Assembly: GCA_949288725.1 (NCBI GenBank)
Contig: CASELF010000093.1
Location: 1-34,461 of the forward strand
Source of the DNA: an uncultured bacterium
Lineage (GTDB): Bacteria > Cyanobacteriota > Vampirovibrionia > Gastranaerophilales > Gastranaerophilaceae
Length of the DNA: 34,461 nucleotides
Direction of reading: 5' to 3'
The position numbers and the translations under genes were made by a program. The notes beneath the pieces were generated by a model. The model ran no database searches, had not been told where the DNA came from, and saw only the letters and a list, made by a program, of their open reading frames with translations. Of the stretch, positions 7,336-33,149 are shown piece after piece; the first letter of the stretch is position 1; each line of letters starts with the position of its first letter.

Positions 7336-7350
7336 ACGCATTCTCCTAAA

Positions 7351-11561: not shown

Positions 11562-11577
11562 TGCTAAAATTATGCTA
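11562..11577 (+). promoter_or_regulatory. Extended -10 of queF at leaderless spacing
   Basis: TGCTAAAAT (hexamer 11565-11570) ends 6 nt before the queF ATG. A transcript started 7 nt after the hexamer would begin at the A of the start codon. No Shine-Dalgarno sequence is present in this gap, and no strong -35 is seen. Confidence 0.5.
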
Positions 11578-12476
11578 TGAATTCAATCACAGATGAAATA
11601 GCTTCAAAATTTTTAGGCAAAAAAACAGAAGGGGCAAATGAATATAACCCTGAACTACTTGTTGCCGTTCCAAGAGAAGAAAACCGCAAGCAATACAATA
11701 TTGATTGCGACAATTTGCCATTCTACGGGAATGATATTTGGCACGCCTTTGAATTTTCAGCAATGACACAAAATTCAATTCCGGTAACAAAAGTTCTTAA
11801 AATAAAATACAACTGCAACAGCAAATTTATCGTAGAATCTAAATCTCTAAAATTATACTTAAACTCTTATAATATGAGAAGAGTTGGCTCATCAATTAAG
11901 CAATGTTTAGAGTTATGCAAAGCAGATATTATAAAAGACTTGAGCCAAAAACTTCAAACTGAAGTTGAGGTTGAATTTCTTGACAATAGAAATAAAACTG
12001 AAATTTTTAACAATTTTCAAAACATTATGGAATTAATCGATGAAAAAAATTTAAAAGTTTCAAAATTTAAAGAAGCACCTGAAGTTTTAAAAGTAGAAAA
12101 TACAGACAAATTAACCCCGTATTATCTTATGTTTGATTCTTTGCGCTCAAATTGTAGAGTAACACACCAGCCTGACTTTGGGAATGCCTTTATTTATTAC
12201 AAATCAAAAAAGCACATTGAAGAAAGCAGTTTGGTAGAATATTTGGTATCTTTTCGTGCAGAATATCATTTTCATGAAGAATGCTGCGAAATGATTTTCA
12301 AAAGACTTTCTGATTTACTTGATAAAGATGATGAACTTATGGTCTGTGCGCTATACACAAGACGTGGAGGTATAAACATTTGTCCAGCAAGATTAAGCAA
12401 TAACTTAAAAGCAGATGACAATATAAATAAGTTAATGAATTTATCAGAATACGCTTCTTACGGCATAAACCTTTAA
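11577..12476 (+). CDS. queF: NADPH-dependent 7-cyano-7-deazaguanine reductase QueF
   Basis: A 299-aa long-form (bimodular) QueF, which reduces preQ0 to preQ1 in queuosine tRNA modification. The N-terminal half has DIWHAFEFSAM and the family signature IVESKSLKLYLNSYN. The C-terminal half has SNCRVTHQPDFGNAFIYYK, with nucleophile Cys193 and Asp200 equivalent to E. coli Cys190/Asp197, followed by EYLVSFRAEYHFHEECCEMIF. All expected catalytic residues are present and the length is normal. No other queuosine genes are in the window. The ATG has no Shine-Dalgarno sequence and sits 6 nt after an extended -10, so a leaderless transcript is predicted. yraN follows 15 nt later with its own ribosome site. 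Confidence 0.96.
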   Translation: MNSITDEIASKFLGKKTEGANEYNPELLVAVPREENRKQYNIDCDNLPFYGNDIWHAFEFSAMTQNSIPVTKVLKIKYNCNSKFIVESKSLKLYLNSYNMRRVGSSIKQCLELCKADIIKDLSQKLQTEVEVEFLDNRNKTEIFNNFQNIMELIDEKNLKVSKFKEAPEVLKVENTDKLTPYYLMFDSLRSNCRVTHQPDFGNAFIYYKSKKHIEESSLVEYLVSFRAEYHFHEECCEMIFKRLSDLLDKDDELMVCALYTRRGGINICPARLSNNLKADDNINKLMNLSEYASYGINL

Positions 12477-24792: not shown

Positions 24793-27252
24793 TTAGCCTT
24801 CGTTATTTGAGTTTTCTTTATTTTCAACAGCAACTTCTTTTACAGGAATTCTCATTCCATAGAAAGAACGCACTACGAAGAATAATCCAATGATAAGAAG
24901 GACTACACCAATATAAGGTGCAATATTTCTAAAGTGTTCATTGATAGAAATTTCCATTGCCAATAAACCGAACAATGTTGTAAATTTGATAATCGGATTC
25001 ATCGCAACAGAAGATGTATCCTTAAACGGATCACCCACAGTATCACCAACAACAGTTGCCTCGTGAAGGGTTGTACCTTTTTCTTGCAAATCAACTTCAA
25101 CAATCTTTTTAGCATTATCCCAACAACCGCCGGCATTTGCCATAAATACCGCTTGGAACAAGCCAAATACTGCAATTGCTATCAAATAACTAACAAAGAA
25201 TGACACTGCATGATTTGATACAGCAGGAGCTGATAAACAAGCAAATGCTAAAGCAAATGCAAATAAAGATATGAAGATATTAACCATACCTTTTTGAGCA
25301 TATTGAGTACAGATTTTTACAACTTCTTTTGAATTTGCAAGATTTGCACTCTTTTCATCAGCCTCACCAAGTTTAATATTTTCTTTAATATATTCAACCG
25401 CTCTATAAGCACCGGTCGTAACTGCCTGCATTGAAGCACCACTGAACCAATAAATTACAGCACCACCTGTCAACAATCCTAACAATGTATATGGATTTAA
25501 CAAGTTCAAGATTAATTGAGGGTCAATACCTAATGTTTCTTTAATTACAAGAATCAAAGAGAAAATCATCGTAGTTGCACCAACAACAGCAGTACCGATT
25601 AACACTGGTTTTGAAGTTGCCTTAAATGTATTTCCTGCTCCATCATTTTCTTCAAGATAATACTTAGCATTATCAAAATCAGCATCAAAACCGAATTCAT
25701 TTTTAATTTCATCTTTAATATTCGGGATTTCTTCGATTAAAGACAACTCATAAACTGATTGAGCATTATCAGTAACAGGGCCGTAAGAGTCAACCGCAAT
25801 GGTAACAGGTCCCATTCCCAAGAAACCGAAAGCAACAAGACCAAATGCAAATACTGATGAATATTCCATCATATCTTCAGGAATAAATGTACTTGCAAAA
25901 TAAGCAAAGCCCATTAATAAAACAATTACCATACCAATCCAGAAACCTGAGAAGTTTCCTGAAACAATACCTGATAAAATTGTCAATGAAGCGCCGCCTT
26001 CTCTTGAAGCTCTAACAACTTCTTCAGTATGCTTTGCCTTAGGTGATGTAAATATTTTGGTAAATTCCGGAATTAATGCAGCACCCAAAGTTCCGCAAGA
26101 AATTATACAAGATAAAATTAGCCAAATATTATTACCAAGACCCTTTAATAGCCAATAACTTACACCAAAAGTCATACAGATAGATAAAATTGATGTAATC
26201 CAAACAAGTCTTGTTAACGGCAATTCAAAATCGAATTTTTTAGCCCTTGGCGCATACACAAATTTGTCCCACAAACTGTTAATCACATAAGAAACAACTG
26301 ATGTAACAATCATTAAAAATCTCATTACAAAGATCCAAGCCAACAATTGAACTTGATTTTCTTGCCCTAAAACAGCAAGCAAAATGAAACTAACTAAAGC
26401 AACACCGGTTACACCATAAGTTTCAAACCCATCAGCAGTAGGTCCAATAGAATCACCTGCATTATCACCGGTACAATCAGCAATAACACCAGGATTTCTA
26501 GGGTCGTCTTCCTTAATACCGAATTGTATTTTCATCAAATCTGAACCGATATCAGCAATCTTTGTGAAAATACCACCTGCAACACGAAGTGCGGAAGCAC
26601 CTAAAGATTCACCTATCGCAAAACCAATAAAACAACTGCCTGCAATATTTTCAGGAACAAACAACAAAATCACAAGCATCATAATTAATTCAACGGAAAC
26701 TAACAAAACACCAATGCTCATGCCGGCTTTTAGCGGAATATTCATAGTATCTAAAGGATTACCCTTTAACGCTGCAAAAGAGGTTCTTGAATTTGCCAAA
26801 GTATTCATTCTTATACCAAACCAAGCAACCGCATAAGAACCTAAAATACCAATTACAGACCATCCTAAAATTGTCAATACAGATTCCAAACCCATTTGGC
26901 GTAAATATCCAAAATAAAATGCAATACACAAAGCAATTAACAACTCCAACACAGCCAAAAATTTGCCTTGCTGAACAAGATATGTCTTACAAGTTTCAAA
27001 AATAGTATTTCCAACATCATCCATAACTTTGTGAACATCTAATTTTTTAATTTTTAGAAATTCAAAAAGTCCAAAAATAAGTCCCAAAACAGAAATTCCG
27101 ATACCAACCAACAATAAAAGATAACTGTCAGGCGCAATTTCCTTAATTCTTGGAACAATCAAGTCTGCTTCACTTGCAAAAGCCGGCGAAGCACTAAATA
27201 GCACTATAGACATAAAAAATAATGCCATAGGTGCAATCAACTTTTTAAACAT
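24793..27252 (-). CDS. hppA: Membrane-bound pyrophosphatase, K+-independent type
   Basis: An 819-aa integral membrane pyrophosphatase with about 16 spans, coupling PPi hydrolysis to H+ (possibly Na+) export. The catalytic block EDDPRNPGVIADCTGDNAGD lies near residues 246-265, and the third conserved acidic block near the C-terminus includes GDTVGDPFKDTS. GNTFKA carries Lys544 where K+-dependent enzymes have Ala, which marks it as K+-independent. The main signature is divergent: KIADIGSDLMKIQ replaces the usual KAADVGADLVGKVE, and GDSIGPTADGFE replaces GDCAGMAADLFE. A signal-peptide-like N-terminus (...SASPAFA|SEAD) precedes the first span. AAAGGAGAGAGAGC gives the start. It has its own promoter and terminator. 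Confidence 0.95.
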   Translation of the reverse strand: MFKKLIAPMALFFMSIVLFSASPAFASEADLIVPRIKEIAPDSYLLLLVGIGISVLGLIFGLFEFLKIKKLDVHKVMDDVGNTIFETCKTYLVQQGKFLAVLELLIALCIAFYFGYLRQMGLESVLTILGWSVIGILGSYAVAWFGIRMNTLANSRTSFAALKGNPLDTMNIPLKAGMSIGVLLVSVELIMMLVILLFVPENIAGSCFIGFAIGESLGASALRVAGGIFTKIADIGSDLMKIQFGIKEDDPRNPGVIADCTGDNAGDSIGPTADGFETYGVTGVALVSFILLAVLGQENQVQLLAWIFVMRFLMIVTSVVSYVINSLWDKFVYAPRAKKFDFELPLTRLVWITSILSICMTFGVSYWLLKGLGNNIWLILSCIISCGTLGAALIPEFTKIFTSPKAKHTEEVVRASREGGASLTILSGIVSGNFSGFWIGMVIVLLMGFAYFASTFIPEDMMEYSSVFAFGLVAFGFLGMGPVTIAVDSYGPVTDNAQSVYELSLIEEIPNIKDEIKNEFGFDADFDNAKYYLEENDGAGNTFKATSKPVLIGTAVVGATTMIFSLILVIKETLGIDPQLILNLLNPYTLLGLLTGGAVIYWFSGASMQAVTTGAYRAVEYIKENIKLGEADEKSANLANSKEVVKICTQYAQKGMVNIFISLFAFALAFACLSAPAVSNHAVSFFVSYLIAIAVFGLFQAVFMANAGGCWDNAKKIVEVDLQEKGTTLHEATVVGDTVGDPFKDTSSVAMNPIIKFTTLFGLLAMEISINEHFRNIAPYIGVVLLIIGLFFVVRSFYGMRIPVKEVAVENKENSNNEG

Positions 27253-27289
27253 GCTCTCTCTCCTTTATTACAAAAGTTTCCTTTATCAT

Positions 27290-27306
27290 TTTCTTATTAT
27301 AAGAAA
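27290..27306. repeat. 17-bp palindrome over the hppA -10
   Basis: TTTCTTAT-T-ATAAGAAA is a perfect palindrome about one base, spanning the minus-strand TATAAT of hppA. It could be an operator, but a palindrome this AT-rich can occur by chance. Confidence 0.35.
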
Positions 27307-27324
27307 TATTACAACTTTGTACAA
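27296..27324 (-). promoter_or_regulatory. Promoter of hppA
   Basis: On the minus strand, TTGTAC (27319-27324), a 17-nt spacer and TATAAT (27296-27301). The predicted start is near 27289, about 36 nt before the ATG. Confidence 0.7.
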
Positions 27325-27347
27325 CAACTTTACATTTGAATATATGA

Positions 27348-27376
27348 TTTACAATTAATTTCACTCCTGATACACT
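27348..27376 (+). promoter_or_regulatory. Promoter of the 27383 gene at leaderless spacing
   Basis: TTTACA (27348-27353), a 17-nt spacer and an extended -10 TGATACACT (hexamer 27371-27376). The expected start, 7 nt after the hexamer, falls on the A of the ATG at 27383. No Shine-Dalgarno sequence lies between. Confidence 0.6.
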
Positions 27377-27382
27377 AAAAAC

Positions 27383-27880
27383 ATGAACGACACACTAAAA
27401 ATTATATGGGGATGCCTGATTCTTTTTTGTGTAATCAGCATAGTAGTTTCTGTCCCTGTCGAAAATACGCAATCACAAATAAAACGAGCGATTCTAAAAA
27501 AAAGACTTGCACCAATTGCAAGACTTGATGCCACTCAAAAATACCTTGATGAATACGAAAAAGATTCTTTTGATGATGTTTATATGTTTGGAGATTCACC
27601 CAGATTAAAATCATTATATTCCATTGAACTCGAAAAAAAAATGTCAGACTCTGAATCCAAGCAAGAAAATTCAAATATCAGAAAACCACTTTACATTAGA
27701 GATAAAAATAACCCAAACATCCTGCACAAATATCCCTACTATGAAAAACCTCAAACTTCTACTCGTTTAGGTTTCAGCGATATAATTAAACGTTTTCAAA
27801 AACCTCCGCAATTCACAACAAAACCTCCATACCCTCAAGATAAAAAAACTCCGCAAAGTTATCGGCCTATATATCCGTAA
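27383..27880 (+). CDS. Membrane-anchored Pro-rich small protein, 165 aa
   Basis: An N-terminal hydrophobic segment (about residues 5-25, LKIIWGCLILFCVISIVVSV) acts as a signal anchor. A charged helical part (KRAILKKRLAPIARLD, QKYLDEYEKDSFDD) follows, then a Pro/Tyr/Lys-rich tail (PPQFTTKPPYPQDKKTPQ). The tail would lie outside the inner membrane if the N-terminus is in the cytoplasm. I recognise no family. The ATG has no ribosome site but sits exactly where a transcript from the adjacent promoter should begin, so a leaderless mRNA is predicted. Its stop is 2 nt from the stop of the convergent 284-aa secreted protein gene, and no terminator separates them. Confidence 0.75.
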   Translation: MNDTLKIIWGCLILFCVISIVVSVPVENTQSQIKRAILKKRLAPIARLDATQKYLDEYEKDSFDDVYMFGDSPRLKSLYSIELEKKMSDSESKQENSNIRKPLYIRDKNNPNILHKYPYYEKPQTSTRLGFSDIIKRFQKPPQFTTKPPYPQDKKTPQSYRPIYP

Positions 27881-27882
27881 AA

Positions 27883-28737
27883 TCAATTAACATAAGCACT
27901 ATCAAGAAGTTTTATTGAAAATGTGCTGCCTGCAGGAATTGATAAATTACCGCCTTTTACTGCCAATGCCGTAATTGGAGAAACAATAGTTGTTCCTGCA
28001 TAACCAACTACACCAACAACAGTTGGAATAGGAGATAAAAATACTAAAATCGGATTATCCGCCATCTTTGAAGATATTTGTCTTGTCTTTTTATAAAAAC
28101 TTTCGCCCTTATCTATATGTTTACCAACACCTGCTATATATTGACGTTTACCCTTTATACGATTGAAAAATATTTTTTTAGATACAGCCTTTGTAATCTT
28201 ACCATTAAATGAATATGTCTGACCATTATAAGAAATAGCAGTGATTTCTATAATAATAAGTCCGCCATTTCCAGTTATTTGAGGTGGGTGGGAATTTACA
28301 ATTTTGCCATAAAATTTTGTTCCTGCAGGAATGACAACATTCTTTTTATATACAGGAGCAGTTGAAGTAAATGTTACATTTGTACCTTTTGCAGTGTAAT
28401 TTGAAATGGTTTTATCAGATTTTACAGAAAAAGTTGTCCACTTCGGAATTTTACGATAAAACTTTTTCTCTGCTTTAGTTACTTCAGGCAAAGCCGCTGA
28501 ATAATCCAACTGCAAGTTCTGATTTACCTTTGATATATCATTTTTAGAAGAATTACTTTTTATACTTCCATTCAACGTATTATTCAATATATCTTGCTCT
28601 AATTTATCAGTATCATATTTTTTTCGAATTTCTTCGTCCACTGAAATATCCAATTCGTAACCTAACACCGGTAAATACAAATTAAACATACAAGCAAGAC
28701 AAAATAATATACTGAGATTTTTTATAAACTTCGCCAT
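27883..28737 (-). CDS. Secreted protein with possible VirB10/TrbI-like beta domain, 284 aa
   Basis: The signal peptide MAKFIKNLSILFCLACMF...VLG is likely cut before YELDIS. A charged, disordered stretch (residues about 30-90) precedes a beta-rich domain. This includes KKNVVIPAGTKFYGKIVN, GGLIIIEITAISYNGQTYSFNGKI, and at the end GGNLSIPAGSTFSIKLLDS. The repeated 'IPAGT/S-x-F' strands resemble the barrel of VirB10/TrbI-type proteins, but no type IV secretion genes are near and the similarity may reflect only a generic beta barrel. A basic helix region (KKTRQISSKMADNPIL) links the two parts. GGAATATAGTA is a weak ribosome site. The function is unknown. Confidence 0.75.
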   Translation of the reverse strand: MAKFIKNLSILFCLACMFNLYLPVLGYELDISVDEEIRKKYDTDKLEQDILNNTLNGSIKSNSSKNDISKVNQNLQLDYSAALPEVTKAEKKFYRKIPKWTTFSVKSDKTISNYTAKGTNVTFTSTAPVYKKNVVIPAGTKFYGKIVNSHPPQITGNGGLIIIEITAISYNGQTYSFNGKITKAVSKKIFFNRIKGKRQYIAGVGKHIDKGESFYKKTRQISSKMADNPILVFLSPIPTVVGVVGYAGTTIVSPITALAVKGGNLSIPAGSTFSIKLLDSAYVN

Positions 28738-32685: not shown

Positions 32686-32714
32686 TTGTTGAATTATTAT
32701 TTGAGTGGTAAACT
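32686..32714 (+). promoter_or_regulatory. Promoter of gtrA at leaderless spacing
   Basis: TTGTTG (32686-32691), a 17-nt spacer and an extended -10 TGGTAAACT (hexamer 32709-32714). The predicted start coincides with the ATG at 32721. No Shine-Dalgarno sequence lies in the 6-nt gap. Confidence 0.55.
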
Positions 32715-32720
32715 TGAATT

Positions 32721-33149
32721 ATGAAAAATTTAGGTTTAATTAAAGAATACTGGTTTAAAATCCCTGATAAAATAAGATTTTTATTTATAGGAGGAACTAA
32801 TGCTGCAATTTCTTACGCTATTTTTGCACTTGCAGTTTATATATTAGGCCCGAAAAACTATCAGGCATGCGTAATCTTACAATGGTCATTATCTTCAGTA
32901 TTCTCGTACTTTAACCAGAAAATTTTTGTATTTGCAACAAAAGGAAATTACATCAAAGAATACCTAAAATGCTGCTCAACGTGGGCGGTAAGTTATGTTT
33001 TAAACGTTATTATACTTGAACTTCTTGTCCGTTTTGCAATAAAAAATGTATATCTTTCACAGTTTGTCTCAATATTTTTAGTATCTGTCGTAACTTATGT
33101 TTTATTTAAGTATTTCGCATTCAAAACAAAAAACAATGTTAAGAACTAA
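32721..33149 (+). CDS. GtrA-family membrane protein
   Basis: A 142-aa protein with four predicted spans and the GtrA opening IRFLFIGGTNAAISYAIFALAVY, then QWSLSSVFSYFNQKIFVF, a hallmark of the family, and a basic C-terminal end (KTKNNVKN). GtrA proteins help flip or supply lipid-linked sugars for cell-surface polysaccharide modification. The length is typical. No glycosyltransferase gene is adjacent, although a membrane GT2 lies about 14 kb away. The ATG lacks a ribosome site and sits 6 nt after an extended -10. It converges on the nitroreductase gene with 15 nt between stops. Confidence 0.88.
   Translation: MKNLGLIKEYWFKIPDKIRFLFIGGTNAAISYAIFALAVYILGPKNYQACVILQWSLSSVFSYFNQKIFVFATKGNYIKEYLKCCSTWAVSYVLNVIILELLVRFAIKNVYLSQFVSIFLVSVVTYVLFKYFAFKTKNNVKN

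Follow-up and report, generated by a model that had tools for sequence, protein, structure and literature searches.

Conserved promoter spacing predicts leaderless mRNAs across Candidatus Gastranaerophilales

In leaderless mRNAs, a 5′ AUG is read by the 70S ribosome or by a small subunit bound to initiator tRNA, and AUG is the start codon preferred in most such messages; their translation in vivo should resist kasugamycin. Across bacteria, TA-led (leaderless) genes carry TANNNT about 10–12 bp before the start codon, taken as the −10 box, and in several low-GC genomes a TG precedes it (Zheng et al. 2011, PMC3160421). According to the figure cited in PMC9581028, GeneMarkS-2 assigned leaderless transcription to 21.6% of bacterial species. 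In Mycobacterium tuberculosis, a quarter of the genes with a primary start site were measured to be leaderless, with promoters that have a TANNNT −10, no −35 motif and TGN in only 7% (PMC3898074). Mapping in photosynthetic cyanobacteria identified 48 leaderless mRNAs in Synechocystis 6714, only six of them common to strain 6803 (PMC5386190), and 19 in Synechococcus elongatus UTEX 2973 (PMC6091082). A literature search returned no report of leaderless mRNAs in Melainabacteria; genome-wide surveys with gene finders may nevertheless have marked such genes without remarking on them.

Here we describe a gene starting at position 27383 of a 34,461-nucleotide stretch of DNA (the window; 32% GC) from a 2.2-Mb draft genome of this lineage. 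We conclude, with a probability of about 0.88, that its mRNA is leaderless, is made from a sigma-70-type promoter and represents one case of a class comprising ~8% of genes in this genome and family. The predicted layout resembles the TA-led genes of Zheng et al. in the placement of TANNNT and in the TG before the −10, and the M. tuberculosis promoters in their TANNNT −10, in a start point that coincides with the start codon and in the involvement of many genes. The M. tuberculosis fraction was measured, whereas ours is estimated from sequence, with TGN in more than a third of the 6-nt cases and a −35 signal. Photosynthetic cyanobacteria belong to the same phylum, and some of their mRNAs have mapped 5′ ends on or close to the start codon, but their cases are few, whereas those predicted in Gastranaerophilales are conserved between species. 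Cyanobacteria are unnamed in the list of bacterial groups with leaderless genes given by Zheng et al. (PMC3160421), whereas the pattern is clear in this non-photosynthetic cyanobacterial family. Leaderless mRNAs as such are well known; what is new is their predicted spread in Candidatus Gastranaerophilales.

The earlier note had proposed a leaderless mRNA for this gene from a TTTACA-17-TACACT promoter with an extended TG, 6 nt before the ATG and without a Shine-Dalgarno (SD) sequence, and every element lies at the position that it claimed (Table 1). The arrangement is that of a sigma-70 extended −10 promoter, with TGN-TANNNT and a −35 element at 16–18 nt. Positions 27348–27376 would serve as this promoter and place the start point on, or within 1–2 nt of, the A at 27383; a start point there makes the mRNA leaderless, and translation would proceed without SD contact, the 5′ AUG presumably being read directly by the 70S ribosome or the initiator-tRNA-bound small subunit. 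The SD is indeed absent: GGAG, GAGG, AGGA and AAGG were not found at −18 to −4, nor was an SD found upstream of any of the 31 orthologues scanned. A search for Rfam elements at the locus was likewise negative.

Table 1. Coordinates of promoter, start and gene features in the window
Feature	Position	Strand	Basis
−35 hexamer TTTACA	27348..27353	+	read from sequence; TTTAC(A/T) or TTAACA at 17-nt spacer in most orthologues
17-nt spacer between −35 and −10	27354..27370	+	sequence; last three bases TGA
Extended −10 element TGA	27368..27370	+	TGN at matching place in 29/31 aligned orthologues
−10 hexamer TACACT (TANNNT)	27371..27376	+	T−12 30/31, A−11 31/31, T−7 31/31 in ATG-anchored orthologues
6-nt discriminator AAAAAC	27377..27382	+	length kept across orthologues, sequence not (except T at −1, 28/31)
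ATG, predicted start of both transcription and translation	27383..27385	+	7th base after −10 hexamer; orthologue N-termini align here
Gene for 165-aa protein with N-terminal hydrophobic segment (read from sequence)	27383..27880	+	ORF
hppA (H+-translocating pyrophosphatase), divergent neighbour, SD-led in-locus control	24793..27252	−	Pfam PF03030, E 6.5e-179
hppA Shine-Dalgarno AAGGAGAG	27258..27265	−	sequence; conserved in orthologues
Likely hppA promoter TTGTAC-17-TATAAT	27296..27324	−	read from sequence; inference
queF, TGC TAAAAT TATGCT ATG	11562..11579 (ATG 11577)	+	6 nt, no SD
gtrA-like gene, TGG TAAACT TGAATT ATG	32706..32723 (ATG 32721)	+	6 nt, no SD

The protein encoded at 27383 matches no Pfam or NCBIfam family and evolves fast, with a match at E ≤ 0.05 in 37 of the 46 genomes of the genus; at least two of these matches are due to chance, and two weak ones (L057, L058) were dropped as chance hits to other genes. 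A search of 146 genomes of the family found the protein in its own genus only, and the orthologues (L024–L059) have a conserved C-terminal motif that follows the pattern PLYIRDKNNPNILHPY. Nearly every species has the gene next to hppA; the divergently transcribed hppA adjoins it in 27 of 31 loci, and this synteny supports the orthology. On its other side lies a convergent gene (27883–28737, minus strand) for a 284-aa protein, also without a Pfam or NCBIfam family, which adjoins in 14 of 31 loci. Across the window, Rfam matches are limited to two tRNA genes (RF00005; 8340–8421 and 34185–34271, plus strand).

We compared the upstream regions of 35 orthologues in the genus, 31 of them ATG-anchored and four taken from further loci (spacings of 6, 6, 7 and 6 nt). 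TGN-TANNNT lies exactly 6 nt before the ATG, where the start point would coincide with the start codon, in 32 of the 35, at 7 nt in two and at 9 nt in one (L049). For two of them (L038, L040), an upstream 6-nt match was set aside as chance in favour of the conserved start 30 nt downstream, which also has the 6-nt spacing. Most of these proteins are only ~30% identical. Upstream of the conserved hexamer, T occurs at −15 in 30 of the 31 ATG-anchored regions and G at −14 in 29, and most have a TTTAC(A/T)-like hexamer at the 17-nt spacer; the six bases before the ATG are free to vary apart from the T at −1. By chance, TGNTANNNT would fall on a given fixed position with a probability of 0.4%; the 35 orthologues share kinship and do not count as 35 independent events. 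The layout is conserved while the protein and the gap bases diverge, which excludes chance at this locus.

The scan for the 6-nt spacing proposed in the earlier note, run on a sample of the genome, was strongly positive, the opposite of the missing enrichment that the note had named as refuting its prediction. The sample comprised the window and 20 stretches of 20 kb (L003–L022), 434 kb in all or ~20% of the genome, so the genome-wide numbers are estimates. Before 367 first-ATG ORFs, TGNTANNNT occurred 13 times at spacing 6 and 0–3 times at every other spacing from 0 to 19; 300 dinucleotide-preserving shuffles gave 0.8 ± 0.9 at 6 nt, with a maximum of 4. Plain TANNNT was found 35 times at spacing 6, 12 times at 7 and ~8 times at nearby spacings, an excess of ~30 genes, or an estimated ~8% of genes. 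Because extended −10 elements are directional, a reversed-pattern control inflates the enrichment, and spacing controls and ORF-anchored counts were used instead. The peak stands at ATG, in keeping with the AUG preference of leaderless mRNAs: none was seen in a region scan before GTG or TTG starts. Internal in-frame ATGs at codons 2–40 have no 6-nt peak either.

Genes with TANNNT at 6 nt in this sample largely lack an SD (present in 5 of 35 against 222 of 320, P = 2.6e-10), and none of the 13 of the TGN type has one. T stands at −1 in 24 of the 30 SD-less 6-nt genes (80%) against 95 of 220 SD-led genes (~43%), and the −35 region matches the consensus at 3.3 of 6 positions against ~2.5 of 6; both features would be predicted for transcripts whose +1 base is the A of the start codon. 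Fewer 6-nt genes lie within 35 nt of an upstream gene on the same strand (4 of 29 against 78 of 210, P = 0.012). The genes in this set are ordinary ones, with uvrC, a DAHP synthase and a UDP-GlcNAc 2-epimerase among them. A further 6-nt match in the window, TAGTTT AGGAGA ATG at 7341 on the minus strand, was rejected as a leaderless candidate, with AGGAG just before its ATG. Loss of S1 is not a likely cause of the pattern, as S1-domain proteins are similar in number to those of a photosynthetic relative.

The signal extends beyond the genus. In four genomes from three other genera of the family, TGNTANNNT occurred 12 times at 6 nt against 0.7 in shuffles (maximum 4); the 6-nt genes there are likewise nearly devoid of an SD (P = 5e-12), and 93% have T at −1. 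A sister family of the same class, f3 (L110–L119), has a broader TANNNT peak 6–8 nt before the ATG and an SD usage of only 27%, which suggests that starts with a short leader or none also occur beyond the family. The 6-nt peak is absent from the three photosynthetic cyanobacterial genomes sampled. Whole-genome counts of TGNTANAAT-ATG, with spacing 6 compared with spacing 9, gave a roughly two- to eight-fold excess in most family members (54 against 24 in the window's genome, 54 against 14 in G037, 65 against 8 in G090) and a weaker one in G130 and G190. Most photosynthetic genomes have similar counts at both spacings (36 against 32 in G048, 44 against 40 in G087), though some depart from this, for example G145 (32 against 10).

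These spacings bear on the alternative that survives best, in which transcription starts 1–3 nt upstream of the ATG, or 1 nt inside it, and leaves a vestigial leader that is still SD-independent. The start points of sigma-70 promoters vary by 1–2 nt, so that any single gene may have a leader of 1–2 nt or a start inside its ATG, and both the minority of orthologues at 7 or 9 nt and the broad peak in f3 are compatible with such a start. Initiation at the A is instead what the narrow peak at 6 nt and the preference for T at −1 and A at +1 fit, and we regard a vestigial leader as unlikely. The transcript almost certainly begins on, or no more than 1–2 nt from, the A of the ATG, judging by the sequence comparisons; we infer the exact position of the 5′ end, on the A itself, from sigma-70 promoter geometry.

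A second TTTACA at 27329–27334, kept in the three closest orthologues, raises the prospect that a distal promoter provides a normal SD-less leader and that the ATG-proximal extended −10 is secondary or non-functional. Such an arrangement is improbable: no good −10 follows this hexamer at 16–18 nt, and the distal block, unlike the proximal promoter, is not conserved in orthologues that are less closely related. Across the same intergenic gap, the 25 readable hppA orthologues all carry the AAGGAGAG SD and none has a 6-nt −10, so the missing SD is a property of the 27383 gene and not of the region; the position of the hppA promoter likely implies a leader of ~37 nt. Less probable still is that the true start codon lies elsewhere and the promoter precedes a short normal leader. 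Start codons are, to be sure, predicted from sequence here, but inspection of the ORF found no in-frame start candidate upstream of 27383, and the orthologue N-termini align at this ATG, with the hydrophobic segment directly after it. Finally, chance matches in an AT-rich genome, where shuffling yields plain TANNNT ~15 times per 367 ORFs at any one spacing so that single TANNNT-only cases are weak, are refuted as a general account by the 16-fold excess of the TGN form over shuffles, its single-spacing peak and its retention in orthologues, and have a negligible likelihood.

With initiation at or next to the ATG as the preferred reading, supported for the 27383 gene by the enrichment in the genome sample and, more strongly still, by the spacing in its orthologues, we turn to queF and gtrA, which the earlier note had named as further cases. 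Both indeed have 6 nt between −10 and ATG and lack an SD. The name queF rests on NCBIfam TIGR03138 (E 3e-72, yet below the curated cut-off); most of its relatives carry the label Candidatus Gastranaerophilales or Melainabacteria, and the nearest is 94% identical. Of 81 queF genes in the family, with starts picked automatically and some uncertain, 44 lack an SD and have TANNNT at a spacing of exactly 6 nt, and 15 are SD-bearing without a −10 at that spacing. In several of these 15 (L191, L208, L219, L222, L223), TGNTANNNT lies farther from the ATG, with a short leader that includes the SD after it. The 6-nt queF promoter often directly follows the T-run of an apparent upstream terminator hairpin (L153, L167, L170, L185 and others), a very compact gene border. 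For the gtrA-like gene, the 6-nt layout is found in the window's genome and the next five relatives among those listed, and many other relatives have an SD behind an apparent upstream coding region. Orthologues of both genes thus differ in state, some with a 6-nt −10 and no SD and others SD-led.

On balance, we favour a broader reading, in which leaderless initiation would be a conserved, family-wide second route in Candidatus Gastranaerophilales, used by ~8% of genes, probably also present in one or more sister families of the class and used far less by photosynthetic cyanobacteria, with genes switching state on gaining a short leader or joining an operon. Because genes would pass between leaderless and SD-led states, the two routes could, if this reading is true, respond differently to stress or to drugs that block initiation. 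The queF and gtrA genes would provide natural pairs of leaderless and SD-led orthologues in which a change of initiation route can be studied. In these genomes, gene finders and reporters designed around an SD could put the starts of such genes in the wrong place. Collectively, the predicted mRNAs would add to the range of an established mode of initiation a gut lineage that is widespread, uncultured and the close non-photosynthetic relative of the oxygenic cyanobacteria.
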